Positions 23,555 to 38,859 of a stretch of DNA of 64,000 bases are shown here, in pieces. This stretch comes from Sphingomonas sp. R647 (GTDB taxonomy: Bacteria; Pseudomonadota; Alphaproteobacteria; Sphingomonadales; Sphingomonadaceae), in the NCBI RefSeq assembly GCF_020177055.1, contig NZ_JAIQXT010000006.1, forward strand, positions 1 to 64,000. The letters are read 5' to 3'. The notes below the pieces were generated by a model that did no database searches, was not told the DNA's origin, and saw nothing but the letters and a program-made list of their open reading frames with translations. Every line of letters begins with the position of its first letter. The stretch's first letter is position 1. A program made the position numbers and the translations under genes.

Positions 23555-24796
23555 ATGACCAGCGAGGCTTCCCCGCGCGCGGTAGATTATTCGCGCGTGT
23601 TCAACCAGGCGATCGACCGGCTGCATGCCGAAGGGCGATATCGCGTCTTTATCGACATTCTGCGCAACAAGGGCATGTTCCCCAATGCGCGATGCTTTGC
23701 CGGGCATAACGGGCCAAAGCCGATCACCGTATGGTGCTCGAACGATTACCTTGCGATGGGCCAGCACCCCAAGGTGATCGCCGCGATGGAAGAGGCGCTG
23801 CACGATGTCGGCGCAGGGTCGGGCGGTACGCGCAATATCGGCGGCAACACCCATTATCACGTGCATCTCGAGGCCGAGCTGGCCGACCTGCACGACAAGG
23901 AAGCCGCGCTGCTGTTCACCAGCGGCTATGTCTCGAACGAGGCGACGCTGTCGACGCTGGCCAAGGTGCTGCCCGGCTGCATCATCTATTCCGACGAACT
24001 CAACCATGCATCGATGATTGCGGGCATCCGCAATTCGGGGTGCGAGAAGCGGGTGTGGCGGCACAATGACCTTGAACATCTCGAGGAATTGCTCGCGGCC
24101 GACGATCCCAATGTGCCCAAACTGATCGCGTTCGAAAGCGTGTATTCGATGGATGGCGATATCGCCCCGATCCACGCGATCTGCGATCTCGCCGACAAGT
24201 ATAACGCGCTGACCTATCTCGACGAAGTTCACGCCGTCGGCATGTACGGCGCGCGCGGCGGCGGCATTTCGGAGCGCGACGAAGCGGCGCAGCGCCTGAC
24301 GATCGTCGAAGGGACGCTGGGCAAGGCATTCGGCGTGATGGGCGGCTATATCGCGGCCGATCGCATGATCATCGACGTGATCCGCTCCTATGCGCCGGGG
24401 TTCATCTTCACCACCTCGCTCTCGCCGGTGCTGGTCGCGGGCGCGCTGGCGTCGGTGCGTCACCTCAAGCAATCGAGCGAAGAACGCGACGGGCAGCAGG
24501 CAGCGGCTGCGCGGCTCAAGACGATGTTCGCCGATGCCGGGCTGCCAGTGATGGACAGCACGACGCACATCGTCCCGCTGATGGTCGGTGACCCAGTACG
24601 CGCCAAGAAGATCAGCGACATCCTGCTCGCCGAGTACGGCGTCTATGTTCAGCCGATCAATTATCCGACCGTCCCGCGTGGCACCGAGCGTCTTCGCTTT
24701 ACGCCAGGCCCGTCGCATGACGAGACGATGATGGCCGATCTCACCGCCGCGCTGGTCGAGATCTGGGAACGGCTGGAGTTGCGTGCTGCGGCCTGA
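23555..24796 (+). CDS. hemA: 5-aminolevulinate synthase
   Basis: A 413-residue PLP enzyme that condenses glycine and succinyl-CoA to 5-aminolevulinate, the first step of haem synthesis by the alphaproteobacterial C4 route. The family motifs are [17 protein letters not shown], the PLP aspartate in [11 protein letters not shown] and the PLP-binding lysine in [13 protein letters not shown]. Length and sequence match ALAS rather than the related AONS (BioF). It stands alone. A 12-base palindrome follows it but with no U-run. Confidence 0.97.
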
Positions 24797-24840
24797 CTTT
24801 ATTGTTTTTGTACCGCATCGATGCGTTATTAATTGGTAAC

Positions 24841-24869
24841 TTGTCAGCGGTACCTAGCAGGGTTAGGTA
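24841..24869 (+). promoter_or_regulatory. Possible promoter for the lasso precursor
   Basis: A TTGTCA at 24841-24846 could serve as a -35, with TAGGTA at 24864-24869 as -10 and a 17-base spacer. The -10 is a poor match. It lies 86 bases before the precursor ATG, in the AT-richer gap after hemA. Confidence is low. Confidence 0.25.
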
Positions 24870-24954
24870 AGCATGTGTGCAGCCTTCCGGCATGCGGGTA
24901 CGGGAACGACCGGCCGCCGCGTCCGGATTGTGCAAGATCTGAAGAGGGGAAAAC

Positions 24955-25107
24955 ATGACGGATCGTATCGGAACCGAACAGCCAGTGCCGGAACTGCGTA
25001 GCTGGATTGAACCCGAAATCTCGGTGCTCGCGATCGAGGAAACCGCTGGCTTTCCGGGTCGTGGCTTGGACGGCAGCGTGGTGGGCCCCGATTGCACGCA
25101 GTCGTAA
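24955..25107 (+). CDS. Lasso peptide precursor
   Basis: A 50-residue peptide with a strong GAGGGG ribosome binding site before its ATG. The leader has W17-I-E-P20-E-I22, matching the YxxPxL recognition motif of B1/RRE proteins with Trp for Tyr, and Thr at position -2 (EETA), the conserved cleavage determinant. The predicted 19-residue core is GFPGRGLDGSVVGPDCTQS. Gly1 and Asp8 would form an 8-residue macrolactam ring, leaving an 11-residue tail that contains a lone Cys and ends in Ser. Cyclase, protease and RRE genes are close by. The assignment comes from the motifs and context; core boundaries are inferred. Confidence 0.85.
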   Translation: MTDRIGTEQPVPELRSWIEPEISVLAIEETAGFPGRGLDGSVVGPDCTQS

Positions 25108-25169: not shown

Positions 25170-26081
25170 CTAACGGATCGGTATGATTACGGTGGGGGCG
25201 CCATCGACTTGAAGTTCGCGTACGGGTTTGTGCTGGTGATCGAGACAGACCAACAACCCGCCTAAAGTGGTGCGGTTTTCACGCGAAGCGAACTGCGAGA
25301 CGCCCACGACCCAGCCGTCGCGATGTGGCGCCAGCCCACGCGTCATTTGGTTGCTGACCGAGATCGCCGGGCCATTGCTCCGCAGCAGCTCGCCATCCTG
25401 CGATCCACAGTGCCACAGCACGCCTTCCCCGTCTTCGACAATGTCATGGCAGCCATAGCCAGCCAGTGTCTCAAAATGGGTGACGCGCCAGTCTGAATCG
25501 AGCCACGCCAACTCGCTGGGCCGCCGGGTCTGGCCGGCCCCGTTATGCAACATCAGAACGACCGCGCCCGCGACATGGGCGATCGAGTTGATGTGCCGAT
25601 AGCGCGGAGTCCGCTCCCCCCGTCGCACGATCCCAAGCGGGGTTTTGACATCGACGGCCGTACCATCCAGCGTAAAGCGGCGGATCACCTGGTTGGCGGT
25701 GTCGACCACGCAGACCAGATTATCGATCACCGCCAGCTGATGACACTGATTGTCGAGGTCGCGGGCGATGACCCGCGTGGCGGTGATGATGTCGCCTTCC
25801 AGATCGAGCGCAAGGATCCGACCCCGCTCGATGCCGCTATGCGGGACACCACAAGATTCGAAGACGAACACTGTGTCACGATGACGATGCAGCCCGAAGA
25901 AAAAGCCATGCGCGATCAGAGCCACGCCTTCGGAATTGGCAGCGAACAGACCGTTCCTGCTCGAGACCAGAATGTCGAAGTCTTGCAGATCGCGTACAAC
26001 CAGCCGAATCCGGTCCTGAACATACGCCTGGTGCGCGAGCGCCGCCCGAATTGCCCGCTCGCTTGCCCGTAGAATGTCCAT
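25170..26081 (-). CDS. Predicted beta-propeller protein in the lasso cluster
   Basis: A 303-residue protein without a signal peptide. It looks like a series of beta-blades: repeated short segments such as LAVIDNLVCVVDTANQVIRRF, HINSIAHVAGAVVLMLHN and GVLWHCGSQDGELLRS, seen here by motif. This pattern fits NHL/DUF4915-like propellers. It lies on the minus strand between the precursor and the cyclase, divergent from the cyclase with a 59-base gap. Role in the cluster is unknown; it could bind a substrate or a tailoring enzyme. It is not part of a minimal lasso gene set. Confidence 0.6.
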   Translation of the reverse strand: MDILRASERAIRAALAHQAYVQDRIRLVVRDLQDFDILVSSRNGLFAANSEGVALIAHGFFFGLHRHRDTVFVFESCGVPHSGIERGRILALDLEGDIITATRVIARDLDNQCHQLAVIDNLVCVVDTANQVIRRFTLDGTAVDVKTPLGIVRRGERTPRYRHINSIAHVAGAVVLMLHNGAGQTRRPSELAWLDSDWRVTHFETLAGYGCHDIVEDGEGVLWHCGSQDGELLRSNGPAISVSNQMTRGLAPHRDGWVVGVSQFASRENRTTLGGLLVCLDHQHKPVRELQVDGAPTVIIPIR

Positions 26082-26140: not shown

Positions 26141-27874
26141 GTGGACCGCACCGGCCTTTACGGTCTGTTTGATCTGGGGGGCGCGAGCGTTGATGCGCGT
26201 GCCGCCGCGGTTCTTGGATTACTGGTCGATGCCGATACCGCGTCAGGGTTGGGCACGCCCGTGGACCTTGCCGATCCGGGCGCAGCTCAAATGGATCGCA
26301 GCGGCGCTCACCTTACCTTGTTCCTAGGTCGACTGGATGAAGCCGAACCGGTCGCGGCCCGGCTCGGCTTGCCCGGCGGGACCGGCGACCTCGAAATTGC
26401 CCGGGCGGCGCTGCTCCGTTTTGGCCCCGATGCCCGCAACATGCTATTTGGCGAGTGGATGATCGCGCATTGGGACGGGCGCGCGCTGGTGCTGGCCAGT
26501 TCAATCGCATTGCGCGATCCGCTATTCTACGCGGTGCGCGGGTCACGCATCGCGATCGGCCCCGACCTGCGCCAACTCAGCCAGATCGACTGGGTCGGCG
26601 ATCGCTTCGACCCGAGCGGCTTGCTTGCCGCGATGGGCTATGGCTGGGTCCGTGCCGCAATCGGCCTGCCAACGCCGATCGCCGGCGTGTGTGCGCTGCA
26701 TCCCGGAGCCTATGTGTCGATCGATCGCACGGGGACGCGCATGGCGCCGCCGCCGGTCATCGACGCCGTTACAGGCTGGCGTGGTGACCTTGAGAGCGCA
26801 ATGGCCGAAGCGGAGGCACTCATGCTCCGCATCGTGCGCCAGCGCATGGTCGGCGGGGCCTACAGCTGCCTGCTCAGCGGCGGGCTCGATTCGTCGACAC
26901 TCGCCTGGCTGACCGCGAACAATCTGCGGCCGGATGAGCAGCTGCACTTCCTGACCAGTGCCGCGAGCGGGCCGGGCCAGGTCGATGAGGTGCGCGAGGC
27001 GGCAATCGTTGCGGGGCATCTTGGCGTTTCGCATGTGCCGGTATGCGCAGCCATGGATGCTGGTCCGTACCGGCCCGGGGCAGATCATTTCCGGACGTCG
27101 AATGGTCCCAGCCTCAGTTTCCGTCACTATCTCTACGACCGGCTGATCGCAACGAGCCGCACGGTTGGCGCGCCGTTGCTATTCGATGGACTTTTCGGTG
27201 AACTCACCTTCACAAATTCACGGCCGCTGTACGGCGAACGCGTCGGTATCAGACAGGCGCTGCGTCGCATGCGCAACGCCTGGCGTGATCCCGGCATGAG
27301 GGGACCGGACGCGCTTTTCCACGTCAATCTTGCCCGCCATTGGCTAGACCGACTTCCACCGGACATTGCGGAGGCTAGCCGGCGTCGGCCCGGACCTGAG
27401 CGCCTGCCGTCGCGACGCGATCTATGGGGCGTGAGCGGTGCCTTTGCCAAAGCGCATCGGGCGACGGCGCAGCTTGACCTGGGTCGGGTGCGCCACGTGC
27501 TGCCGTTCCGCGATCCGCGGTTGATTGCATTGTTCGCGGCCTTTCCGGCGAAGATGCTGTATCCCGAGCCAGGCGCACGGACTCCGGCACGGCAGTTGCT
27601 GAGCGGCAAGCTACCGGATTCGATCCGGTTGCGGGGCAAGGGTCCGGGGATCGCGCCCGATTATGCAGAGCGCCTCAGGTCGGAAGCTGGCGCGGCCCGC
27701 GTGCGGATCCCCCTGTTTCGCCAGGCAGGCGCGGACGAGTGGATCGACCTTGCCGCGCTCGACCGCGGACTTGCGCGAAATGGGGCGGGAGTCAGTACCT
27801 TCGGCGAAGCGACCCGAACCCAGTTGACCGCCCTTGCCGGCGAGTTCTTCGTCTGGTGGCGCGGCCTGTCATGA
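26141..27874 (+). CDS. Lasso peptide macrolactam synthetase (asparagine synthetase homologue, C protein)
   Basis: A 577-residue asparagine-synthetase-like enzyme. The N-terminal amidohydrolase-like half begins MDRTGLYGLFDLGG and lacks the catalytic Cys2, as in lasso cyclases. The ATP-pyrophosphatase motif is S246-G-G-L-D-S251 (LLSGGLDSSTLAW). In lasso synthesis this protein adenylates the ring Asp/Glu side chain and closes the macrolactam on Gly1. GTG at 26141 follows a GGGGGA ribosome binding site. Its 3' end overlaps the convergent kinase gene by 6 bases. A primary asparagine synthetase is less likely given the missing Cys and the neighbours. Confidence 0.88.
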   Translation: MDRTGLYGLFDLGGASVDARAAAVLGLLVDADTASGLGTPVDLADPGAAQMDRSGAHLTLFLGRLDEAEPVAARLGLPGGTGDLEIARAALLRFGPDARNMLFGEWMIAHWDGRALVLASSIALRDPLFYAVRGSRIAIGPDLRQLSQIDWVGDRFDPSGLLAAMGYGWVRAAIGLPTPIAGVCALHPGAYVSIDRTGTRMAPPPVIDAVTGWRGDLESAMAEAEALMLRIVRQRMVGGAYSCLLSGGLDSSTLAWLTANNLRPDEQLHFLTSAASGPGQVDEVREAAIVAGHLGVSHVPVCAAMDAGPYRPGADHFRTSNGPSLSFRHYLYDRLIATSRTVGAPLLFDGLFGELTFTNSRPLYGERVGIRQALRRMRNAWRDPGMRGPDALFHVNLARHWLDRLPPDIAEASRRRPGPERLPSRRDLWGVSGAFAKAHRATAQLDLGRVRHVLPFRDPRLIALFAAFPAKMLYPEPGARTPARQLLSGKLPDSIRLRGKGPGIAPDYAERLRSEAGAARVRIPLFRQAGADEWIDLAALDRGLARNGAGVSTFGEATRTQLTALAGEFFVWWRGLS

Positions 27875-28780
27875 TGGCGTGAAGCTGCGACCCAGCGTCA
27901 GTGCATCCTGTGCACGCTGCTCATGTTCCGCGTGGCCACCCCTCGCCACACCCGGAAACCCGACGACCGGCAGAAAATCTGCCAATTTCAACAGCGCGCG
28001 CTGGCGTTCAGGATGGTTGGGCAGCGCTGCGAGCCAGGCCGGCCGAAAGAGATGGCGGGCGAGAAATTGCGCGCGGGCCACAGGCGCGAGGGTGCCGGGC
28101 GGAAGCCCGAGCGCGATCACCCCAGCCAGCGGATATGCCCCAGCATCGAACCGCGCGCGGAGCCTTAGCACCTGCTTGCCGCGCGTCTCCCGCAATGGCA
28201 GGTCCAGCACCTCGCCTTCGGTCCATGCGGCGACGACGGGATCAAGACGGATCGTCGTCCGTCCCGGCAGGATGACCGGATCCAGCGCATCGACAGGATC
28301 GCACCGGATCGCGGACAGGTCGTCGCTCAGCAGGCGCGCGCCCGCCGCGATCAGGCCGGCGGTAAGGCTCGATTTCCCCGCCCCGGCCGCTCCCGCGATC
28401 AGCAAGGCGCGCCCGTCGATCGCGACCGCACACGCATGCATCGGGATCAAGCCGCGCCACGCCAGCAGATGCGCAACGACGGTGCCATAAAATGCGTGCG
28501 GCAAGGCACCAGTCCAGGTCGGCCCAGGCAGATAATCGACCCGGTTTCCGTCGACCATGTCGAAAATCGCCTGATCCCGCCACGGGAACCGGGTGCCATC
28601 GGTAAACAAGGCGCCTGCGCGCACCGGGGCGACATGCTCCCGCTGCGCGAGCGCGGCGCTGCGCCGGATCAGGACATCGGCCGTTTGCGCATCATCGCCA
28701 TTGGCGAACTGAACCAGCGGAAGATCGCTACGCCACACCAGGCCATAGGCATGGCCGCAAAAGCGCGAGTCAGCCGGCAC
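27869..28780 (-). CDS. HPr-kinase-like protein 1 of the lasso cluster
   Basis: A 303-residue protein related to HPr kinase/phosphorylase. The P-loop is IAGAAGAGKSSLTAGL (about residues 129-144), preceded by an HACAV segment and followed by the acidic GARLLSDDLSAIR, typical of the family. Homologues in lasso clusters, for example that of paeninodin, phosphorylate the C-terminal Ser of the precursor. The precursor here ends in Ser, so it is a candidate kinase. It overlaps B1 by 11 bases and is last in the operon. Confidence 0.8.
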   Translation of the reverse strand: MPADSRFCGHAYGLVWRSDLPLVQFANGDDAQTADVLIRRSAALAQREHVAPVRAGALFTDGTRFPWRDQAIFDMVDGNRVDYLPGPTWTGALPHAFYGTVVAHLLAWRGLIPMHACAVAIDGRALLIAGAAGAGKSSLTAGLIAAGARLLSDDLSAIRCDPVDALDPVILPGRTTIRLDPVVAAWTEGEVLDLPLRETRGKQVLRLRARFDAGAYPLAGVIALGLPPGTLAPVARAQFLARHLFRPAWLAALPNHPERQRALLKLADFLPVVGFPGVARGGHAEHEQRAQDALTLGRSFTPS

Positions 28781-29039
28781 GTGCGAGCTGCTGCACCTCC
28801 ATCTCGGCCAGCGTGCGCTGGACCGCCGCTGCGCAGGCGTCAGGCGCGACCGCGAATTGCGCGGTCAGGCTTGCCGTGATCTCGTCCTGCGTGCTCGGAA
28901 CTTCCAGCGCGTTCCAGATCGCATGAGCCGTCTCGTTCAGCGAGACGTAGGCGCCATTGCCGATGTTCACCATCACGAAGCTGTCTTCGATCGCGGAGCC
29001 CACCCAGTCGTCGTTCCGCGTCCATTTTGCGTCGCTCAT
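28770..29039 (-). CDS. Lasso peptide B1 protein (PqqD-like RRE)
   Basis: An 89-residue PqqD-family protein with the recognition-element fold: a beta-hairpin region VMVNIGNGAYVSLNETAHAIW followed by helices in the second half. In split B1/B2 systems B1 binds the leader peptide, usually through a YxxP motif, and presents it to the B2 protease. The precursor carries W-x-x-P in the same place. It overlaps its upstream neighbour by 4 bases (ATGA) and the downstream kinase by 11, showing a tight operon. No PQQ genes are nearby, so a PQQ role is unlikely. Confidence 0.85.
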   Translation of the reverse strand: MSDAKWTRNDDWVGSAIEDSFVMVNIGNGAYVSLNETAHAIWNALEVPSTQDEITASLTAQFAVAPDACAAAVQRTLAEMEVQQLARAG

Positions 29040-29881
29040 TCGATCTCTTCCCCCATCCCGATCCGGTCAAGCAGTGTCCATTCCGCCGGGGTCAGCGGCG
29101 CCGCCCCCGCACGTCGCCGCCAGCTATAGTGCGGGATTGCGCCCGCGAGTAGGGTGGCATCGCGTAAAACCTCGGCCGTTCGGCCAAGCAATGCCGGGAC
29201 GCGCGGCCTGTGCCGGTGCGTGAGCAGGGACGCGACCGCCGCAACCGGATCAAGCCTTGCGAAACAGGCTTCGCCCTCGGTGCGCGCGTCGAGTTTCAGG
29301 ATCGCGGCAATCGGCGCGCTGGCGAGTGACTGACACGCATGCACCGATACAAACTGCCGCCCGCTTCCGGCATTGCGCGCGGCAAACCAGCCGCCGCCAA
29401 GCCCGCTCGCTCGCGTGCCGGTGTCGCGCGAAAAGGCGATCGTATCGTCGCCGATCAGCGCCGCACCTGCCCCGGTCAGCTGCGCCAGAATCGTCGATTT
29501 GCCGCTGCCCGATGCGCCGGCGATCGCAAGTGCGCCACCACCGCGAAGCCGAACCGCCCCGGCGTGCAGCACGAACCGGTCGCGCAACCACAACCAGGCG
29601 GGAAGCGCGGTGGCGACGAGCATGCCTGGCACTATGTCTAGAGGTGCATCCGGATCGGGGGCGACGGTGATCGCATGCGCCGAAATCCGATAGCTGGCGA
29701 CGCCGGGACATACAAAGCACAGGCCGTCATGCGTCAGCGCATAAACCGGCGCGTTTGCGGTCGATTGCGGCGGCTCCAGCCCGATCACGAGATCGGGCGG
29801 ACCGTCGCGATCATCCACGACTGCGCCGGGAACCGCGAGCTGCGACTCCAACCGCAGCCCGTAGCCGGTCAACCGCGGCAT
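29036..29881 (-). CDS. HPr-kinase-like protein 2 of the lasso cluster
   Basis: A 281-residue protein with an HPr-kinase-type P-loop, IAGASGSGKSTILAQL (about residues 120-135), preceded by VLHAGAVRL and followed by GAALIGDDTIAF. It is clearly related to the neighbouring kinase-like protein but diverged, especially at the ends. One may be catalytic and one accessory, or they may form a heteromer or act on different residues. It lies just upstream of B1 with a 4-base overlap. Confidence 0.78.
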   Translation of the reverse strand: MPRLTGYGLRLESQLAVPGAVVDDRDGPPDLVIGLEPPQSTANAPVYALTHDGLCFVCPGVASYRISAHAITVAPDPDAPLDIVPGMLVATALPAWLWLRDRFVLHAGAVRLRGGGALAIAGASGSGKSTILAQLTGAGAALIGDDTIAFSRDTGTRASGLGGGWFAARNAGSGRQFVSVHACQSLASAPIAAILKLDARTEGEACFARLDPVAAVASLLTHRHRPRVPALLGRTAEVLRDATLLAGAIPHYSWRRRAGAAPLTPAEWTLLDRIGMGEEIE

Positions 29882-29888
29882 CGACCGG

Positions 29889-31094
29889 TCAGCCCGGCCA
29901 GATGTCGAACGCGACGCAAATGCGCCGCTCGGCGGCGCCGTGCGGGAAGGTGCGGTGGTAGCAATGCGACGGGAACAGCATCACCGTGCCCGCAGTCGGC
30001 CGGACGATGGTGCTGCCGAATGCCTGTGCCGCATCGTCGCCGACCATGTCCTCGGGAATGCCGAAGGCGATACAGCCGGCCGCGTCGGTCCCGGTCGCGA
30101 TCCCCTCAGGGATCTGGACATAATAGACGCCACTCAACCAGCCAAACTGGTGGACGTGCCAGGTTTCGAACCCGGTGCTTTCGGTGATGACGCACCAGCT
30201 GTGCAAGATCCCTGCGCGGGGTTGGGCGCGCAGCCAGGGATGATCGTCCGCCGCCAGCGACACGAGATGCGCATCGATCGTCCCGGCAAGCCCATCGAGC
30301 AGTTGGCGGATGCGCGGTGACTCCCCCGTCGCAGGCGCATCGATCCGCCAGGTTTGTTCGGACGCGCTGCCGTAGCGTTCATAGCGCAGCCCCGGATGGG
30401 TCAGCAGTTCGGCGGCGAGTGCCGCGTTGAAGGTGTCGAGATCGTCGAACCCTGCGGGCGTGCCAAGCATGCCGCGATAGGCGAACCGATCCCACCCATC
30501 CTGTTCGCGCGCGGCGTCGATCCGGCCGAGCTGGGCCAGCGCCAGCGTCTGCGCCGCGAACAGGCGCGAATGGCCCACCCCCTGCGCATCGAGCTGCGCC
30601 ATCTCGTCGAGCACGCGTTCGGGAGCGCCGCTGTCGAAATAGAGGCTGGCGAGCCGCTTGCATGCATCCTTGTTGCGCGGATCATGCGCCAACGCCTGTC
30701 TCAGGCTCTGCTCCGCAGCTTCAATGTGGCCCAGGCGCCGCTGAGCCTTGCCGCGCGCGGCCAGCGCGGCGGCACGCTGAGGGCCCTGATCGGCGCGCTC
30801 GAACGCTACCGTCGCGAGCGCAGCGGCGCGCGCTGTATCGTCAGGTCGCTCCACCGACATATGCGCATTGGCAAGGACCAGCACTTCGGCGAAGTCGAGG
30901 CTGTCGGGGTCGATGTCGGCGTAGAGCGCGATGACATCGTCGAACCGGTCGTTGCGCATGAGCAGCACTGCCAGCCGGGCGCGCAACAGCGAAGAGGCGG
31001 GATTGCGGGCATAGGCGGTCTGCACCAGCGCGCATTCATCGGCCCCGGTGATCCGCTTGCCCACTTCATGGTCGATCGTCATATGATCGGTCAT
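29889..31094 (-). CDS. TPR / 2-oxoglutarate-Fe(II) oxygenase family protein
   Basis: A 401-residue protein. The first half has helical TPR-like repeats (about 15-190, e.g. RRLGHIEAAEQSLRQALAHDPRNKDACK). The second half is a 2OG-Fe(II) oxygenase domain with a His-x-His (TWHVHQFGWLSGVYYVQ) and a distal His and Arg (FPSHCYHRTFPHG) of the jelly-roll fold. Such enzymes usually hydroxylate their target. It is the first gene of the minus-strand lasso operon, 7 bases before the second kinase, so a tailoring step on the peptide is possible. The first metal ligand is not a textbook H-x-D, so activity is not certain. Confidence 0.78.
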   Translation of the reverse strand: MTDHMTIDHEVGKRITGADECALVQTAYARNPASSLLRARLAVLLMRNDRFDDVIALYADIDPDSLDFAEVLVLANAHMSVERPDDTARAAALATVAFERADQGPQRAAALAARGKAQRRLGHIEAAEQSLRQALAHDPRNKDACKRLASLYFDSGAPERVLDEMAQLDAQGVGHSRLFAAQTLALAQLGRIDAAREQDGWDRFAYRGMLGTPAGFDDLDTFNAALAAELLTHPGLRYERYGSASEQTWRIDAPATGESPRIRQLLDGLAGTIDAHLVSLAADDHPWLRAQPRAGILHSWCVITESTGFETWHVHQFGWLSGVYYVQIPEGIATGTDAAGCIAFGIPEDMVGDDAAQAFGSTIVRPTAGTVMLFPSHCYHRTFPHGAAERRICVAFDIWPG

Positions 31095-31212
31095 GCGCCC
31101 TCCGCCTCGCCCATTGGCACCGCACGATGGGCGGTGCTAGTGCATGCCGTGGAACCCCCGGCGTCACAAGCCGAAATGCAGTGGCCGATTTGCAGTGGAT
31201 GGAGATGGTTAC

Positions 31213-31710
31213 GTGTCGCGCACCGCGATAATTGCGCGCAAATTGGCCGTGGCGCGACGCCAGCCGGCCTTCGTGCTGCTGTGGCTGCTGCCCGCGTGGC
31301 TGCTGATCGGCATGTCATCCGCGTTGATCGCGATCGTGCCGTTCCGCCGCATCGCGCCGTTGTTGGGTGTCAATCTCGGCGCGACCGCGCATCGCCCAGC
31401 CGCGACGCCGCAGCAAGTGGCACGCGCACGGTTGATCGGGAGGGCCGTGTCGATCGCGGCATCCTACGCCCCGTTCCGATCGAACTGCCTGCCGCAGGCG
31501 ATGGCGGCGAAAGCGCTATGCGCCTTGTGGCGCGTGCCATGCGCGGTGATTTTGGGGATTGAGCGGGCGCGTCCCGAGGGCGAACTGCGGGCCCACGCCT
31601 GGACCAGTTGCGGCGACGCAGTGCCGACAGGCGGCGGACATTGCTTCACGACGCACGTGCCGCTGTCCTGCTTCGTGCCCGCCGGAGAGGCGGCGTCGCT
31701 TCAGCGCTGA
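31213..31710 (+). CDS. Lasso peptide biosynthesis B2 protease
   Basis: A 165-residue transglutaminase-like cysteine protease. The catalytic Cys (C92 in SNCLPQAMAAKAL) and His (H128 in AHAWTSCG) fit the lasso B2 family, which cuts the leader just after the conserved Thr-x pair. An N-terminal membrane helix (about 20-42) is visible. The GTG at 31213 follows GGAG by 8 bases; an upstream ATG at 31144 would only add 23 odd residues. The gene diverges from the oxygenase-kinase-B1 operon and overlaps the GNAT gene by 10 bases at its 3' end. Confidence 0.87.
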   Translation: MSRTAIIARKLAVARRQPAFVLLWLLPAWLLIGMSSALIAIVPFRRIAPLLGVNLGATAHRPAATPQQVARARLIGRAVSIAASYAPFRSNCLPQAMAAKALCALWRVPCAVILGIERARPEGELRAHAWTSCGDAVPTGGGHCFTTHVPLSCFVPAGEAASLQR

Positions 31711-32219
31711 ACCGGCGCGCGATGCATTTCGGCGAACGCGGCCCAAGGGTCGGGTTCGGTCTCAACGAACCCCAGTCTTTCGTAGATCTGACGCGCCGGA
31801 TTGCCGACCTGGACCTCCAGCGTCGCGGTTAAGCCATTCGCGTCGGCGGCCGCGAGCCAGGCGGCCAGCAGATGTCCGCCGGCGCCGATACCGCGATGCT
31901 CGGGACGTACCGCGATATCGACAAGATGCGTGCCCGCGCCGTGCCATGCGACCAGAATATGCCCGATCGGCGCGCCATCGCGGGTTACGATCCGGTGCAT
32001 TGCGTCGGGATGCGCCGCATCATGCGCTGCGCGCTGAAACTCGGCCTGCTGCACGAGCATCGCTTCGGAAAGAAGGCCCTGCATCGGCGAGCAGGCAATG
32101 GCGCAGGCGATCAAAAATTCCACGTCGCCTGATGTACGCGGTCGGCACTGAAGGTCACCGGCGCGCGCGCCAAAGGCGGCATCGAAGGCAGCGGCAGGGT
32201 CGGTTTCGAAATGGCTCAA
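31701..32219 (-). CDS. GNAT family N-acetyltransferase
   Basis: A 172-residue acyltransferase with the acetyl-CoA-binding loop VRPEHRGIGAGGHLL and the C-terminal NPARQIYERLGFVE of the GNAT fold. It would transfer an acetyl or similar group to an amine. The substrate is unknown. It converges on the B2 gene with a 10-base overlap, so it may belong to the cluster, but GNATs are common everywhere. Confidence 0.88.
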   Translation of the reverse strand: MSHFETDPAAAFDAAFGARAGDLQCRPRTSGDVEFLIACAIACSPMQGLLSEAMLVQQAEFQRAAHDAAHPDAMHRIVTRDGAPIGHILVAWHGAGTHLVDIAVRPEHRGIGAGGHLLAAWLAAADANGLTATLEVQVGNPARQIYERLGFVETEPDPWAAFAEMHRAPVQR

Positions 32220-32285
32220 CGATCAACCCTTGTACCGCGCGATCCGGCAGTTGATTGCGCCGAATTTCCATTTAGGGTGCGCGGC

Positions 32286-32600
32286 ATGACCACTGAACTC
32301 ATCCCCCGCCCGATGGTGATCGAGGAATTCCAGCCGCACGTCGGCAAGCTGTTCCGCCTCGATTGCGAACCGCGCAATGTCGATATCACGTTGTTGAGTG
32401 CGACGCCGCTGACCAACCATCGCCCGTCGATGCGACCGCCATTCCGGCTGATGTTCCATTCGGATCCGATGGTTCAGCTTGGTACCGGCATCTACGCGAT
32501 GCGTAGCGGGTCGTTCGGGCCGGATATGGTCTATATCGAGCAGACGATGCCCCCGGCCGACGCGGTTCCGGGCCATTATTATCAGGCCGTCTTCAACTGA
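32286..32600 (+). CDS. DUF6916-like small protein
   Basis: A 104-residue protein. The opening (EEFQPHVGKLFRLDC) and the closing segment (VYIEQTMPPADAVPGHYYQAVFN) resemble DUF6916, which is usually found next to tail-collar proteins, as here. Function is unknown. The ATG at 32286 gives MTTELIPRP. Confidence 0.65.
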   Translation: MTTELIPRPMVIEEFQPHVGKLFRLDCEPRNVDITLLSATPLTNHRPSMRPPFRLMFHSDPMVQLGTGIYAMRSGSFGPDMVYIEQTMPPADAVPGHYYQAVFN

Positions 32601-32602
32601 GG

Positions 32603-32626
32603 CCCGCCGGGATTTCTCCCGGCGGG
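32603..32626. terminator. Hairpin between convergent genes
   Basis: CCCGCCGGG at 32603-32611 pairs perfectly with CCCGGCGGG at 32618-32626 around a 6-base loop. It lies in the 33-base gap between the DUF6916-like gene and the convergent tail-collar gene. It could end transcription in both directions, although no U-run follows on either strand. Confidence 0.6.
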
Positions 32627-32633
32627 AAACGCT

Positions 32634-33227
32634 TCAGTTGCGCGACGGAAAGATACCGAACAGCGCGATGACCGGGCTCATCACCAGATAAGGCTGCATC
32701 GTCGAGTGCGGCTGGCTTCCGCCGGCGATCTGAGTGTTGCCTGCGACATTGACGCCAGCCAGCGGCACCTTCGTCGCAGGGTCCCCGGTCGCGGCTGGCA
32801 CGTAGAATCGGGGGATCATGTCCGGCGATGGTGCCGTGTCCACCCCGCGCGCGAGATAAGCGCCGGCCTGAGGCGACTGTTCGGTCGCCTTTAGATTAAC
32901 CGCGCTCAGCGTACCGGTCGCTCCAGCCATCGAGTGGGCGTGCATCGGCATCTGGGTGCTGGCCAACGTAACGTTCTCGGTACCGGCCACTTCACCCATG
33001 GAGTATGTGCTCAGCCCTGGCCCCGATCCCTGGCCAATCGCTGTCCGACCTTGCAGGTCGGGTAGCGCAAAGGTCGTCTGACCATTGCCACCGTAGGTCG
33101 TGCCGATTAGCGAAAACAGAGCAGTATTCTGCGCAATTGCCTGGATTTGGCCCGCACAAAACGCCCAGTTTCGCGGCGGGAAATTGTACGGAACGGTCAT
33201 GATTGTTGCAATGAACGGCGTTGCCAT
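32634..33227 (-). CDS. Phage tail-collar domain protein, copy A
   Basis: A 197-residue protein of the microcystin-dependent-protein/tail-collar family. Conserved pieces are PRNWAFCAGQ near the start, NTALFSLIGTTYGGNGQTTFALPDLQGR (by motif) and the C-terminal GGSQPHSTMQPYLVM. It is about 70% like the next gene. The family is found in phage tail fibres and in secreted bacterial proteins; here there are no other phage genes. The ATG at 33227 starts MATPFIATI. Confidence 0.88.
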   Translation of the reverse strand: MATPFIATIMTVPYNFPPRNWAFCAGQIQAIAQNTALFSLIGTTYGGNGQTTFALPDLQGRTAIGQGSGPGLSTYSMGEVAGTENVTLASTQMPMHAHSMAGATGTLSAVNLKATEQSPQAGAYLARGVDTAPSPDMIPRFYVPAATGDPATKVPLAGVNVAGNTQIAGGSQPHSTMQPYLVMSPVIALFGIFPSRN

Positions 33228-33313
33228 CGGAGCCCCCAATATTCATCGGACCGTTAAGGCCCATCTCCTGCGTAGATCAGTATCGCGCCGGCACATCGCC
33301 GGCCCGATGCAAA

Positions 33314-33907
33314 TCAGTTACGCGACGGGAAAATACCAGTCAGTGCGATACACTGGTTGAGCACCAGATACGGCTGCATCGTCGAGAAGGGCTGGCTGCC
33401 GCCCGCAATCTGGGTGTTCCCGGCAACATTCACGCCGGCCAGCGGGACCTTTGCCGCGGGATCACCCACAGAAGCGGGCAGATAAATTTCGGGGATCGAG
33501 TCCGGCTGTGGCGCCGTATCGACACCGCGTGCCAGATAGCCACCGGCCGGGGGATTCTGTTCCGTCGCCTTGAGGTTGATTGCGCTGAGCGTACCCGTCA
33601 CGCCCGAAAGCGAGTGGACGTGCTGCGGCATCTGGGTGCTCAACAGGGTCGTCGTTTCAGTGCCTGCCACTTCGCCGATCGAACGAAATGAGAGGCCCGG
33701 ACCTTGCCCCTGACCCAACACCACGCGACCGCGAAGGTCAGGAAGCGCGAAGGTCGTCTGACCGTTTCCGCCATAGGTCGTCCCGAGCAGCGAAAACAGC
33801 GCAGTGTTCTGCGCGATCGACAAGATCTGACCCTGTGCCAGCGCATAGCCTACGGGCGCAAAGTTAAACCCGAAGGTTGCAACCTGGCCAATGAACGGCT
33901 CCGTCAT
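33314..33907 (-). CDS. Phage tail-collar domain protein, copy B
   Basis: A 197-residue paralogue of the protein at 32634-33227, with the same length and the same motifs, NTALFSLLGTTYGGNGQ and GGSQPFSTMQPYLVL. The two are tandem duplicates 86 bases apart. Such pairs often sit with DUF6916, GNAT and sulfotransferase genes in proteobacteria, as here. Role is unknown; a surface or secreted binding protein is possible. Confidence 0.88.
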   Translation of the reverse strand: MTEPFIGQVATFGFNFAPVGYALAQGQILSIAQNTALFSLLGTTYGGNGQTTFALPDLRGRVVLGQGQGPGLSFRSIGEVAGTETTTLLSTQMPQHVHSLSGVTGTLSAINLKATEQNPPAGGYLARGVDTAPQPDSIPEIYLPASVGDPAAKVPLAGVNVAGNTQIAGGSQPFSTMQPYLVLNQCIALTGIFPSRN

Positions 33908-34068
33908 AGTGATCCCCCCAGAAATGAAGGCCGATCCCCGTGATCCGACCTTTGTTCAAATACTTAATCTGCATGACCTGCAAAGGCTTCCGCTAACACA
34001 ACGCGCGAAGGCCCATCGACGCGGGACCTTAGCGGGGACGCTAATCAAGTCAATAACATCGAAACCAT

Positions 34069-35289
34069 CTAGCCCTGCGCGCCAACACCGGTACGAAGCG
34101 CCTCGATCCGCGCATAGGGGGCCTCCAGATGCCGCTTTACCGCCGCAGCAATTGCCGGCGTGACCGCAGCACGCTTCTGCTCGGTATCATCCGCATATGC
34201 CTGATCCGGCACCTTGGAATTGTGGCGTGCGGCGGCGGCCATCGCGGCCAGTTCATCCGCGTCAGGATCGAACCCGAAATGCTGCGGGATGACCGACTCC
34301 ATCGCCGATCGCAGGTCGGCATAGTTGACCAGCAACCCGCCCCCGACCGAGGCATGCTCGATCGCGCAATCGAGATACCTGGCCAGTACTGCGGCACCCT
34401 GATCCTCGATCGAAAACACGTTGCCGGTATCGACCACCCCGAGCTCCGGGACGACGCCTGCGGAAAAATGAATTCCAGGCATCCCAATGTGGGACACCAT
34501 CACCTCCTCCGGCTTGCGATACAGGAATATCCAGGGGGTCGACGGGAACGCCGCACGGAACAGCGGCAGCGCCACGACATTCCACGCGTCGAGCTTAAGA
34601 AAAAAGCGCCGCGCGTTCCCCGAACGGTTGCGACCCAATGCTGCGACCAGCGCGCGAAGCGCCGCGACTTGCTGATCGAGCGGCGCGCCCGATGTCACCG
34701 CCCACTGGACGAGCACATCGATCGGCGCAGCTTCCGACGCAACGACATGATGCGGCACTGCGGCCAGCATCTGTGCGACCAGCGTCGAGCCGCAGCGTGA
34801 CATGTGGAAGACGATTCCGTCGGGGGCCAGCGTCGCTTCTCGCTCCGCGCCGGCGATCAACCCGGCAAGATCGGTGCGCGTGCGGAACATCCGGCTGAGC
34901 GGGCGCGACGCGACCCGGTTGACGCTGTCTTCGAACAACGGCTCGCTTAGCGCACGATCGCCGAACCAGGCCCAGTCGAATGCGGGAGCCCCATGCCCCG
35001 GCACCGCCCGCACCGGTAGCCAACCGATCTGCGGCCAGGTGTCGAGCGTGACCGGCGCACCTTGAAATCGCGAAATGCCCAGCGGATCGGGTGCCGGTAC
35101 TTCGATCGCCGCCGAAGCGGAATCGAGGCCCAGTTCCTCAGCAATCACACGCAGTTCCGCATCGAACTCGGCCGCATCGTAATAGGCGCCCAACCGGGCC
35201 TGAAGCGCCGGGCTGGTAAGGATCGCGCGCCAGAGTTTCTGCGCGTCGCCGTCGTCGCTCGAATACTCCGTCACGCTGTGTGCCCCCAT
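34069..35289 (-). CDS. Sulfotransferase family protein
   Basis: A 406-residue protein. Residues of about 150-400 match the sulfotransferase fold: the 5'-phosphosulfate-binding loop VFHMSRCGSTLVAQML and the later WIFLYRKPEEVMVSH. It would move a sulfate from PAPS to a hydroxyl or amine. The N-terminal 150 residues are unassigned. It is alone, after a 160-base gap from the collar genes. Whether it acts on the lasso peptide is speculation. Confidence 0.82.
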   Translation of the reverse strand: MGAHSVTEYSSDDGDAQKLWRAILTSPALQARLGAYYDAAEFDAELRVIAEELGLDSASAAIEVPAPDPLGISRFQGAPVTLDTWPQIGWLPVRAVPGHGAPAFDWAWFGDRALSEPLFEDSVNRVASRPLSRMFRTRTDLAGLIAGAEREATLAPDGIVFHMSRCGSTLVAQMLAAVPHHVVASEAAPIDVLVQWAVTSGAPLDQQVAALRALVAALGRNRSGNARRFFLKLDAWNVVALPLFRAAFPSTPWIFLYRKPEEVMVSHIGMPGIHFSAGVVPELGVVDTGNVFSIEDQGAAVLARYLDCAIEHASVGGGLLVNYADLRSAMESVIPQHFGFDPDADELAAMAAAARHNSKVPDQAYADDTEQKRAAVTPAIAAAVKRHLEAPYARIEALRTGVGAQG

Positions 35290-35396: not shown

Positions 35397-35840
35397 ATGT
35401 CGAACATGAACAACAATGAACAGGGCCAGGTGAGCCGCCGGTCGTTTCTTGGGCGCGCGGGCGCAGTCTCCGCAGCGGGCGTGGTTGCCGCAGGCGCGAT
35501 CAACCCCGCCATGGCCTTCGCTGGCAACAGCGTGCGCACCTACAAGGGCAAATATGCGGTCGATTCGCACCGCGTGATTGACGGCTTCATGGCGGTCCCC
35601 AAAGGCAAGTCCGATCTGGATGTGGTCGTTGTCGTTTCGGAAAGCGGCAAGCTCGATTCGACCGCTGAAGCAACCGCGCGTCGCTACGCAGCGTCCGGCT
35701 GGATCGCGTTCGCGCCGGATCTGGGGTCGACGTACAAGAGCACCGACAAGCAGGCGATGGTCGCCGCGCTGACGCGCGACCTGCCCCGGTTTAAGCGCCT
35801 GACGCTGAGCAGCGGCAAGGTCGCGGTCGTCGCGGCCTGA
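35397..35840 (+). CDS. Tat-exported small protein
   Basis: A 147-residue protein with a twin-arginine signal (QVSRRSFLGRAGAVSAAGVV, residues of about 11-45), so it is exported folded, perhaps with a bound cofactor. The rest (about 46-147) resembles only the first part of dienelactone-hydrolase-like proteins (SHRVIDGFMAVPKGKSDLDVVVVV), without the catalytic triad. It may be a complete small binding protein or a shortened hydrolase. It lies upstream of the T4SS genes but ends in its own hairpin. Confidence 0.75.
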   Translation: MSNMNNNEQGQVSRRSFLGRAGAVSAAGVVAAGAINPAMAFAGNSVRTYKGKYAVDSHRVIDGFMAVPKGKSDLDVVVVVSESGKLDSTAEATARRYAASGWIAFAPDLGSTYKSTDKQAMVAALTRDLPRFKRLTLSSGKVAVVAA

Positions 35841-35845
35841 TTTTC

Positions 35846-35874
35846 CCGTTACCCGCGCGATGCGTGGGTAACGG
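35846..35874 (+). terminator. Strong hairpin after the Tat protein gene
   Basis: CCGTTACCC at 35846-35854 pairs with GGGTAACGG at 35866-35874, extended inward by three more pairs (one G-T), around a 5-base loop. It starts 5 bases after the stop codon. There is no U-run, so it is a weak intrinsic terminator or a mRNA-protecting hairpin. It separates this gene from the virB cluster. Confidence 0.55.
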
Positions 35875-35898
35875 CCTAGTGCGTGAGGCGTTGGACTA

Positions 35899-36222
35899 GT
35901 GATCGCAACCTTGTGTCATCGGGCCGCAGCGACGTTCGCGGCCGCAACCGCGTTGGTCTGGTCGAGTGCCGCCGCCGCGCAGGAACTGGCCGATCCACAG
36001 GGGTCGGGCGCGATTGTCGGCGCGGTGCGCTGGCTTCAGGGGACGCTACTCGGCACGGTCGCGACGGTGGTTGCGGTAATCGCGGTCGCCGCCGTCGGTC
36101 TGTTGATGCTCACCGGCCGGATCAACTGGCGCTATGGCGCCACCGTCATCCTGGGCTGCTTCATCCTGTTTGGCGCCGCCAGCATCGTTGCGGGCATCCA
36201 GGCGACGGCCGGCGCGGGTTAG
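35899..36222 (+). CDS. virB2: VirB2 pilin of the type IV secretion system
   Basis: A 107-residue TrbC/VirB2 protein: a long signal peptide (cleavage likely after AAAA) and two hydrophobic helices in the mature part (about 50-72 and 83-100). It is the major pilin of the secretion channel. GTG at 35899 is the likely start. It heads the virB gene set, followed by virB3 after 7 bases. Confidence 0.85.
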   Translation: MIATLCHRAAATFAAATALVWSSAAAAQELADPQGSGAIVGAVRWLQGTLLGTVATVVAVIAVAAVGLLMLTGRINWRYGATVILGCFILFGAASIVAGIQATAGAG

Positions 36223-36229
36223 GGCCTGA

Positions 36230-36514
36230 ATGACCGGCCTTGACCGCGACACCGTATTCGTCGCGCTGACGCGGCCGCAGATGTTTGCGGGCGTCACCTA
36301 TACCTGGTTCATCGCCAATGCGGTGCTGGCGACCGAGCTGTTCCTGATCTTTCGGTCGGTGTGGGTGCTGATCGCCGCTGTGGCGATCCATGGCGCGGGC
36401 ATGCTGGCGTGCCTGCGCGAGCCGCGTTTCTTCGACCTGTGGATTACCCGGGCAAGCCGCTGCCCACGCGTCCCCAATCATCGGATCTGGCGGTGCAACT
36501 CCTACCGGCCCTGA
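36230..36514 (+). CDS. virB3: VirB3 inner membrane protein
   Basis: A 94-residue membrane protein with two helices and the VirB3 sequence features GLDRDTVFVALTRPQMFAGV at the start and LREPRFFDLW, ending WRCNSYRP as in many alphaproteobacterial VirB3 proteins. It works with VirB4 in pilus assembly. Its end overlaps the VirB4 start. Confidence 0.9.
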   Translation: MTGLDRDTVFVALTRPQMFAGVTYTWFIANAVLATELFLIFRSVWVLIAAVAIHGAGMLACLREPRFFDLWITRASRCPRVPNHRIWRCNSYRP

Positions 36515-38859
36515 CCCGCGACCGGCGGGTGATCGATCGTGAGGCGAGCGCGGGGCGGCATCTGCCCTATGCGCGCCATGTCGACGATGTGACGATCGCG
36601 ACGCGTGACGGCATGCTGATGCAGGTCATCCAGATCGGCGGGCTTCTGTTCGAAACGGCGGACAGCGAGGAGATCAATTATCGCAAGCGACTGCGCGATG
36701 CGACGTTGCAGGCGATCGGATCGTCACGCTTTGCGGTCTATCATCATATCGTGCGCCAGCGCGTCGAACCGGGGCTGGCGGGGGATTTCCCAGACGATTT
36801 CTCGGAGCGGCTGGACGCGGCGTGGCGCGGACGGCTGGCGCGCAAGCAGCTCTATACCAACGACCTGTTTCTGACGCTGGTGCGGCGCCCGCTGCAAGGG
36901 CGGATCGGCCTGCTCGACCGGCTGCGCGGCGGCCTTAGCGGGATTGAGGCCGAGGCGGCGCGCGCACAGGATCTGCGCGAATTGAACGAAGCGCGCGAGG
37001 CGCTGTTCGCGGCGCTCTCGGCTTATGGGCCACGGCTGTTGTCGGTCTATGAAACGCCGCAGGGGCCGGCGTCCGAACCGCTCGAATTCCTCTCGACGCT
37101 CTACAATGGCGAACTGCGCCCGGTGCTGCTGCCGATGCAGGATCTGGGCGAGTATCTCCCCTATCGCCGGGTGAGCTTTGGCCAGAATGCGATCGAACTG
37201 TCCCCGGCGGCGGGGAGCGGGACCGATTTTGTGGGCATGGTGTCGATCAAGGATTATCCGGGCCAGACCGCGCCGGGGATGCTCGACGATCTGCTCCGCC
37301 TGCCGCTGGAGCTGACGGTCACCCACAGCTTCGGCTTTGTTGATCGTCAGGCGGCGCTGTCGAAGATGAACCTTGCGCTGCGGCGGATGCGTTCGGCGGA
37401 GGACGAGGCGGTGAGCCTGCGCGCCGAACTGGGCGAGGCGAAGGACGAGGTGGCGGCGGGCCGCGCCGGGTTTGGCGAGCATCACATGACCGTCGCGGTG
37501 CGCGGCGCGTCGCCCGAGGCGGTCGATCAGGGTGTCGCCGAGGTGCAGGCTGCGCTGTCCGATCTCGGCATCATCGCGGTGCGCGAGGAGATTGCGCTCG
37601 AACCCGCATTCTGGGCGCAATTCCCCGGAAACTTCAAATATATCGCCCGGCGCGGGCTGATTTCGACCGGCAATTTCGCGGGGCTGGCGAGCGGGCATAA
37701 CTTCCCGGTCGGCAGCGCGAGCGGCAATCACTGGGGCGATGCGGTAACGCTGCTCGAGACGACCGCCGCCGGCCCCTATTATTTCAACTTCCACCATGGC
37801 GATCTCGGCAATTTCACCGTCATCGGCCCGTCGGGGTCGGGCAAGACGGTGGTGCTGAACTTCCTGCTCGCACAGGCACGCAAGTTCCGTCCGCGCATCG
37901 TGTTCTTCGACAAGGATCGTGGGGCGGAGCTCTTTATCCGCGCGATCGGCGGGCAATATGACGTGCTGCGCCCCGGTGTGCCGTCGGGGCTCAACCCGTT
38001 GCAGCTCGACGATACCGCCGAGCATCGCCAGTTCCTCGCCGACTGGCTCGCCCAGCTGGCGGGCGGGGTCGACATCGATGAGGCCGCGCGGCTGAAGGAC
38101 GCGCTGGACGCCAATTTCGACCAGCCGCGCGCGAACCGCCGCTTGCGCCATCTGGTCGAGCTGTCGCGCGGCGGCGAGCGACCGCATGGCGCCGACCTGT
38201 GGTCGCGGCTGCGGCCATGGTGGGGCGACGGCGAACGCGCCTGGCTGTTCGACAATGAAAGCGACACCACCGACCTGACCGCCGAGGCGGTCGGGTTCGA
38301 CATGACGCAAATCCTGGACGATCCCGCCGTCCGCACCCCGGCGATGATGTACCTGTTCCAGCGAGTCGAGGAGCGACTCGACGGATCGGCGGCGATCATC
38401 GTGGTGGATGAGGGGTGGAAGGCACTCGACGACGATGTCTTCGTGCGCCGGATCAAGGATTGGGAAAAGACGATCCGCAAGCGCAACGGGATCGTCGGCT
38501 TTGCCACGCAGAGCGCGCAGGACGCGCTGGAAAGCCGCATTGCCAGCGCGATCATCGAACAGGCCGCGACGCAGATCTTCATGGCCAATCCGAAGGCGCG
38601 CGCGGCGGATTATGTCGACGGGTTCGGCCTGACGCCGCATGAGTATGAGCTGATCCGCGCATTGCCGGACAATGCCCGCTGTTTCCTGATCAAGCATGGC
38701 GCCGAAAGCGTCGTCGCGCGGCTCGATTTGTCGGGCGAGCAGGAGATTCTGACCGTGCTGTCCGGGCGCGAGCGTACCGTGCGCCTGCTCGATACGATCC
38801 GCGCCGAACATGGCGACGATCCCGCCGAGTGGCTGCCGCGCCTGATGGAGGTCGCATGA
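36493..38859 (+). CDS. virB4: VirB4 ATPase
   Basis: About 788 residues. VirB4 is the largest channel ATPase. Walker A is VIGPSGSGKTVVLNFLL (about residue 445) and Walker B is AAIIVVDEGWKAL (about 635); the N-terminal half includes HLPYARHVDDVTIATRDG. No clear ATG exists at the N-terminus, so GTG 36493 (overlapping virB3 by 22 bases) is the most likely start; GTG 36529 is an alternative. The stop overlaps virB6 (ATGA). Confidence 0.95.
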   Translation: MQLLPALTRDRRVIDREASAGRHLPYARHVDDVTIATRDGMLMQVIQIGGLLFETADSEEINYRKRLRDATLQAIGSSRFAVYHHIVRQRVEPGLAGDFPDDFSERLDAAWRGRLARKQLYTNDLFLTLVRRPLQGRIGLLDRLRGGLSGIEAEAARAQDLRELNEAREALFAALSAYGPRLLSVYETPQGPASEPLEFLSTLYNGELRPVLLPMQDLGEYLPYRRVSFGQNAIELSPAAGSGTDFVGMVSIKDYPGQTAPGMLDDLLRLPLELTVTHSFGFVDRQAALSKMNLALRRMRSAEDEAVSLRAELGEAKDEVAAGRAGFGEHHMTVAVRGASPEAVDQGVAEVQAALSDLGIIAVREEIALEPAFWAQFPGNFKYIARRGLISTGNFAGLASGHNFPVGSASGNHWGDAVTLLETTAAGPYYFNFHHGDLGNFTVIGPSGSGKTVVLNFLLAQARKFRPRIVFFDKDRGAELFIRAIGGQYDVLRPGVPSGLNPLQLDDTAEHRQFLADWLAQLAGGVDIDEAARLKDALDANFDQPRANRRLRHLVELSRGGERPHGADLWSRLRPWWGDGERAWLFDNESDTTDLTAEAVGFDMTQILDDPAVRTPAMMYLFQRVEERLDGSAAIIVVDEGWKALDDDVFVRRIKDWEKTIRKRNGIVGFATQSAQDALESRIASAIIEQAATQIFMANPKARAADYVDGFGLTPHEYELIRALPDNARCFLIKHGAESVVARLDLSGEQEILTVLSGRERTVRLLDTIRAEHGDDPAEWLPRLMEVA

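Follow-up and report, generated by a model that had tools for sequence, protein, structure and literature searches.

We report that a 50-residue open reading frame (ORF) at positions 24955-25107 (+ strand) of a 64,000-nucleotide stretch of the Sphingomonas sp. R647 genome (contig NZ_JAIQXT010000006.1, positions 1 to 64,000; the window) very probably encodes the precursor (A) of a lasso peptide, and we put the probability of this reading, judged from the sequence, at about 0.83. Members of the cyclase (C), PqqD-type RiPP recognition element (B1) and leader peptidase (B2) families are all encoded within 7 kb of the ORF, with which they form a predicted complete lasso set. These adjacent genes, together with a Thr at -2 and an Asp at core position 8 in all 19 precursors of the family that we describe, support the earlier proposal of an eight-residue Gly1-Asp8 ring.

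The ORF starts with ATG at 24955, ends with TAA at 25105-25107 and comprises a 31-residue leader (24955-25047), MTDRIGTEQPVPELRSWIEPEISVLAIEETA, ending in E-T-A, followed by the core (25048-25104), GFPGRGLDGSVVGPDCTQS. It is located between a gene at 23555-24796 on its 5' side, which we take to be 5-aminolevulinate synthase-like (hemA) and which matches the Pfam family aminotransferase class I and II, and a convergent gene encoding a 303-residue protein. The marks from which a sequence-only reading had recognized a precursor, i.e. W-x-x-P, Thr(-2), Gly1 and Asp8, were all present in this ORF. On motif alone the window precursor stands out only a little: one ORF in the window fits a loose lasso pattern, compared to a mean of 0.31 per simulated window, while a strict pattern, devised post hoc when the window sequence was known, fits one ORF compared to none in 150 simulated windows. 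These motif-only statistics are weak and we do not rely on them; conservation and gene context, as read from the sequences, exceed chance. With about 0.3 chance short ORFs carrying the loose pattern per simulated window, the ORF might be spurious, or the true gene might be the overlapping antisense ORF at 24741-25097 (118 residues). This we consider extremely improbable, given that homologous ORFs are present at 19 loci and that substitutions fall mostly at third codon positions in the + frame; comparing the window precursor with that of locus L097, identity at codon positions one, two and three is 42/49, 40/49 and 27/49, respectively. Based on homology and codon-position evidence both a chance ORF and an antisense gene were rejected, and that 24955-25107 is a real gene is in our judgement nearly certain.

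Comparison of the DNA of the window and L097 gave identities of 73/93 for the leader, 38/60 for the core plus stop, 105/158 for the upstream spacer and 33/65 for the downstream spacer. The core is no better kept than the upstream spacer, which indicates that it evolves fast. The upstream spacer (24797-24954, + strand) carries a Shine-Dalgarno-like purine-rich stretch, GAAGAGGGG, directly adjoining the ATG, and its first part (approximately 24810-24870, delimited by eye) is well conserved in L097 and L098 and may, judging from this sequence, hold a promoter; a sigma-70 promoter scan of 24797-24954 gave no match. For eight homologues, compared over 35 codons from the Trp to the ORF end, dN/dS was 0.04-0.23 in the 24 of 28 pairs for which it could be computed (the window and L027 were excluded for length, and genus loci added later are outside the set), and the codon changes thus point to purifying selection on the precursor.

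To what extent the pathway is distributed was addressed by several searches. Searching 397 genomes of the bacterial family with the 50-mer, the three best non-self matches (E 5.6e-5, 0.0014 and 0.0014) came from exactly the three other family genomes that have a cyclase match (E ≤ 1e-20), and 16 further family genomes gave weaker 50-mer matches (E 0.003-0.1), none of them with a cyclase match. Within the genus the cyclase is present in 18 of 295 genomes, the window's own genome counted. An alignment-based cyclase scan of genome contigs yielded eight loci, including Sphingomonas hylomeconis, S. aurantiaca and a Porphyrobacter MAG; a single-cyclase query against the same contigs returned no relative, and a cyclase search of plasmids gave no match. 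After removal of duplicates (L036 repeats L028; L089, L091 and L093-L096 repeat L030-L034 and L037) we counted 21 distinct cyclase loci, window included, some of which belong to close relatives. Profile searches identified the precursor at 19 and a beta-propeller gene at all 21 of these loci. By the standard of the sequence-only reading itself, orthologous clusters holding a different precursor in this position would have refuted it; of the 21 loci checked, 19 hold precursors that are homologous, and none was found at the remaining two, L035 (a 4.7-kb contig) and L099 (20 kb searched), which are kept in the denominator of 21.

The 19 precursors, the window's included, comprise 16 distinct cores of 17 to 20 residues. 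All have W-x-x-P in the leader, and in all of them Thr(-2) follows the Trp by 13 residues and core residue 8 is Asp; since the Thr was chosen by script as the one with Asp or Glu nine residues on, Asp8 is part of that choice, and the constant Trp-Thr spacing is not. A second Asp is found four residues before the last residue in all 19, while residue 3 is Pro in 17 (and Ser only in L029). The second Asp is followed by Cys in 17 precursors and by Ser in the other two (L030 and L103), and the last residue is Ser in 18, L102 ending in Val. The lone Cys and the C-terminal Ser had been regarded as unusual; as both are common to the family neither is odd within it, both being instead family hallmarks. 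The C-terminal Ser moreover corresponds to the phosphorylation site reported for kinase-associated lasso peptides in the available part of PMC9266682.

The reading of a Gly at the start of the core as a precursor mark holds for the window precursor and only in part for the family: Gly1 is present in the former, and among the 19 precursors residue 1 is Ala in seven, Leu in five, Gly in only four, and Gln, Arg and Asn in one each. Gln, Arg or Asn at this position is unusual for lasso peptides, and these three precursors are awkward for the lasso reading. The variation at residue 1 (G, A, L, Q, R, N) would also fit a genuine peptide that is cleaved elsewhere than after Thr-Ala, with the start of the ring shifted by one residue in either direction (giving a 9- or 7-membered ring). 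We consider such a shift very unlikely, the distance from Thr to Asp8 being constant in 19/19, and Thr(-2) being stated, in the accessible text of PMC10368454, for all lasso precursors reported before BsfA.

Against NF033524, the paeninodin-family model, five of six scanned precursors match weakly (E 0.0006-0.1), all below the cut-off of 27 bits, with 19.6 bits as the best score. The window precursor has no match to this model, nor to any other NCBIfam or Pfam model, and the family is therefore not filed as a member of the paeninodin family. Another lasso-like precursor ORF was observed in genome G260 (L070:8928-9059, - strand), where it lies between PqqD and Transglut_core3 genes and has a Y-x-x-P-x-L leader and Thr(-2) followed by Gly-Gly.

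Downstream of the precursor, and beyond the beta-propeller gene (25170-26081, - strand), the cyclase gene (26141-27874, + strand) encodes an Asn_synthase domain (PF00733, E 6.7e-14). Its SGGLDSS motif is invariant in four aligned cyclases and an N-terminal Cys is absent from them, as it is, to our knowledge, from lasso cyclases. It matches the lasso cyclase model NF033535 with E 5e-10, which is far below the cut-off (38.6 of 525), and a cyclase profile searched against the PDB matched only three asparagine synthetases (E about 4e-7). B1 (28770-29039, - strand; PqqD, E 1.2e-15) scores 45.6 of 80 against the curated lasso model, i.e. far below cut-off, and matches lasso recognition elements of known structure, namely 9x90 ('Lasso peptide biosynthesis PqqD family chaperone', E 2.7e-5) and TbiB1 (E 7e-4). 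B1 is flanked by two HprK-type kinase genes, kinase 1 at 27869-28780 and kinase 2 at 29036-29881 (both - strand), with the motifs H..G..GAGKS..DD and H..G..GSGKS..DD, respectively. For both proteins the PF07475 match is below the Pfam cut-off and the kinase motif is intact; both are among the 31 of 38 kinase ORFs from the loci that fit H..G..G.GKS..DD, the motif listed for lasso kinases in the available text of PMC10368454. B1 and at least one kinase were identified for 19 of the 21 loci and at least two kinases for 18 (L068 and L069 counted with their genomes); neither B1 nor a kinase was found in the stretch examined at L090 and L035, and the one at L030 holds one kinase. A gene at 29889-31094 (- strand) encodes a putative hydroxylase consisting of TPR repeats and a 2OG-Fe(II) oxygenase domain (PF13759, E 2.4e-20), and a counterpart is present for 21/21 loci when a second locus in genome G205 (L068) is counted with the first.

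B2 (31144-31710, + strand) is a Transglut_core3 protein (E 2.2e-20), in which one Cys and the His of an AHAW motif are kept in 11 aligned proteins; no match was obtained against PDB sequences. Transglut_core3 is present over the cut-off in all 20 cyclase-bearing genomes searched (4/4 and 16/16), compared to 29 of 96 other relatives (33/100 relatives minus four cyclase bearers; Fisher p 2e-9, a comparison set that includes 39 order-level relatives of unchecked cyclase status) and, within the genus, in 18/18 compared to 25/57 (p 1.2e-5), bearing in mind that both tests ignore relatedness. In ten of the 20 genomes no more than about 11 kb separates B2 from the cyclase, and in the other ten the distance is greater or the two are on different contigs. 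In genome G205 the pathway is split: the precursor, propeller and cyclase genes are at 2.03 Mb (L027) and the oxygenase, kinase, B1 and B2 genes at 2.34 Mb (L068), approximately 300 kb apart. Such a naturally split pathway can show which genes go together as modules, and this genome could be used in pathway reconstruction.

The host genome has 14 PqqD, 18 Asn_synthase and two Transglut_core3 places. Within ten stretches (L130, L131 and L133-L140, on contigs C1, C5, C6, C8, C9 and C11), HprK, PqqD and Asn-synthase genes occur together eleven times with no B2 alongside, and several of these sets have short ORFs with W-x-x-P leaders; of the two Transglut_core3 genes one is in the window and the other is next to an Asn-synthase gene in L132. 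The host thus holds many related cryptic RiPP-like loci but only two Transglut_core3 genes, and the eleven sets may make other RiPPs or share B2 in trans. A sister precursor in L131 (2983-3156, - strand) has a leader, WTAPVLQELDLRETA, closely similar to that of the window precursor and a tail ending in VDCS, and its first core Asp is at position 10. Sets lacking an adjacent B2, one of them with a similar leader and Asp at 10, mean that the leader type alone is no proof of a lasso peptide, and by sequence the machinery belongs to a wider family whose members may not all make lassos. A second family of peptides, in which a W-x-x-P leader is accompanied by a K-A-A-E-G stretch, was also noted (L130:10092-10250, L133:9702-9881 and L110:11344-11523; all - strand, stop to stop) in loci with PqqD and HprK genes, and it is found in another family of the class as well.

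The host sets, with acidic residues at other positions in some of the W-x-x-P peptides, could favour a macrolactam RiPP without threading, for which recognition element, kinases and cyclase would give a branched-cyclic phosphorylated peptide, or the ATP-dependent enzyme would form another amide. The variable core residue 1 is compatible with such a product, and threading is not revealed by sequence. Arguing against it are the presence of B2 within the window cluster and of Transglut_core3 in each of the cyclase-bearing genomes searched, and the constancy of Thr(-2) and Asp8, and we regard the non-threaded product as unlikely.

L097 and L098 keep the whole gene order of the window: hemA, precursor, propeller, cyclase, kinase, B1, kinase, 2OG oxygenase, B2, GNAT, DUF6916, two tail-collar genes and the sulfotransferase-like gene. 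Among the last of these, the GNAT acetyltransferase gene (31701-32219, - strand) is present in 5 of 23 stretches searched (the 21 cyclase loci plus L068 and L069) and the Sulfotransfer_3-like gene (34069-35289, - strand; below the Pfam cut-off) in 11 of 23; the roles of both are uncertain. The DUF6916 gene (32211-32600, + strand) is a neighbour that is probably not specific for the lasso pathway, and the two genes for tail-collar domain proteins (32634-33907, - strand) are neighbours of uncertain role. As DUF6916 is present in 68 of 201 genus genomes compared to 18 of 295 for the cyclase, the collar and DUF6916 genes were dropped as pathway members. Genes for DUF6916, tail-collar and sulfotransferase-like proteins do recur by lasso genes, joined less often by GNAT (31701-35289 in the window; L027, L069, L031-L034, L037 and L097-L100), and in genomes G622 and G649 a DUF6916 gene lies less than 1 kb from a Transglut_core3 gene. 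Two genes that follow the cluster encode a DLH-like protein, which is short (35397-35840), and a VirB4-like one (36361-38859, PF03135); by eye, the ORFs next to the latter, within 35397-42695, resemble type IV secretion genes, and the order of this stretch is the same in L027.

No Pfam family was matched over the cut-off by the 303-residue beta-propeller protein. Its confidently predicted structure (pLDDT 84.3, pTM 0.85) is aligned by VIA-align first to LRP-type YWTD propellers (Z 24.2, 234 residues, rmsd 2.6, 14% identity), which are six-bladed, while Foldseek ranked cobalamin-binding surface lipoproteins first. Such generic propeller matches reflect a shared fold only, and we rejected them as a guide to function. 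Five His residues (H114, H163, H179, H212 and H224) are invariant in nine aligned propellers, and that the protein provides a metal site or a scaffold is a guess. In a class-wide search it was present in four of 385 genomes, i.e. that of the window and three from a single genus of another family; in the latter (L109-L111) HprK genes adjoin the propeller gene and the cyclase profile gave no match within 20 kb, which hints that the propeller serves the kinase pathway and not ring closure.

Known lasso systems allow a comparison. The leader of paeninodin has Tyr where the window family has Trp. From the accessible portions of the papers cited here and below, precursor, cyclase, split B1 and B2, HprK-like kinase and C-terminal Ser are shared with the paeninodin type (PadeK, ThcoK and SyanK; PMC9266682). 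The window family differs in that 18 of the 19 genomes with any HprK-like protein have two of them, in a beta-propeller and a TPR-2OG oxygenase throughout, in a D-[CS]-x-x tail and in precursors that score below the NCBIfam cut-off, and no transporter or nucleotidyltransferase was recognized among the window cluster genes scanned. The bsf cluster of Bradymonas sediminis (PMC10368454) likewise has discrete B1, B2, C and kinase genes, the same kinase motif and a proposed eight-residue Gly1-Asp8 ring; in contrast, the residue phosphorylated by BsfK is Ser3, in the ring, and the bsf leader combines Y-x-x-P-x-L with Ile(-2), where the window family has W-x-x-P, Thr(-2) and mostly Pro3. Sphingomonadales precursors with Ile or Val at -2, as opposed to the Thr found here, are mentioned in the same paper. 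Canucin (PMC9266682) also has a 2OG oxygenase in its cluster and an Asp near the C-terminus as possible target; the window enzyme has TPR repeats and is a member of PF13759, and its target site is putative. Sphingocin, of the isopeptidase type (PMC11006600), is another sphingomonad lasso peptide without an ABC transporter; its cluster includes an isopeptidase and a TonB-dependent receptor, neither of which was recognized in the subset of window ORFs scanned, and by eye its precursor looks unrelated to ours. In the part of PMC9716278 available, antiSMASH lassopeptide clusters are listed for an Antarctic Sphingomonas, with no precursor sequences to compare with the window family.

By analogy with characterized families, B1 would hold the precursor by its W-x-x-P leader, Ser19 at the C-terminus would be phosphorylated by either HprK-type kinase or by both, and B2 would cut between Ala31 and Gly32, right after Thr(-2)-Ala(-1). 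The cyclase would then use ATP to activate the Asp8 side chain and join this with the amine of Gly1 around the tail, where the ring is predicted and the threading is guesswork, as are the role of the propeller and any bioactivity of the peptide. Because of the adjacent kinases the C-terminal Ser is a likely phosphorylation site, as in paeninodin, and phosphorylation of Ser19 appears somewhat more probable than its absence; according to the available text of PMC9266682, PadeK phosphorylates a precursor that is still linear, at its C-terminal Ser, and at that residue ThcoK and the Sphingobium yanoikuyae kinase SyanK each add several phosphates. While still linear, the precursor may be hydroxylated by the TPR-2OG oxygenase, with the invariant Asp15 as a candidate site by guesswork; CanE, a 2OG enzyme, beta-hydroxylates a C-terminal Asp of the canucin precursor, aided by B1 (PMC9266682, in part), and from this analogy hydroxylation of Asp15 is conceivable and on balance doubtful. 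A speculative and rather improbable extension is that the Asp-[Cys/Ser]-x-x-(Ser) tail forms a metal- or cofactor-binding end, in which beta-hydroxy-Asp made by the TPR-2OG oxygenase is combined with either a free thiol or a second Ser and with (poly)phospho-Ser made by the two kinases, with maturation aided by a dedicated propeller. If true, the lasso peptide would resemble a metallophore, its tailoring set would be one undescribed in the literature searched, and the two kinases would have different targets.

Five peptide strings from the family cores had no match in the main texts of the literature searched, where nothing was found that links lasso peptide, HPr kinase and Sphingomonas. Within the reach of these searches the family is new, as a predicted lasso family of the kinase type in which the Asp-[Cys/Ser]-x-x tail is invariant and two kinases are usual. 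Its propeller and TPR-2OG oxygenase are constant, and neither was met as a constant partner in the portions of the lasso literature covered. The precursor sequence gives exact mass targets for detection of the product, with a calculated monoisotopic mass of 1829.84 Da for the core less one water ([M+2H]2+ 915.93; 79.97 more for each phosphate and 15.99 for each hydroxyl) and 1847.85 for the linear core. Finally, Sphingomonas and its relatives would have a coherent kinase-type lasso family, defined from sequence, with a tail motif that is conserved and testable.
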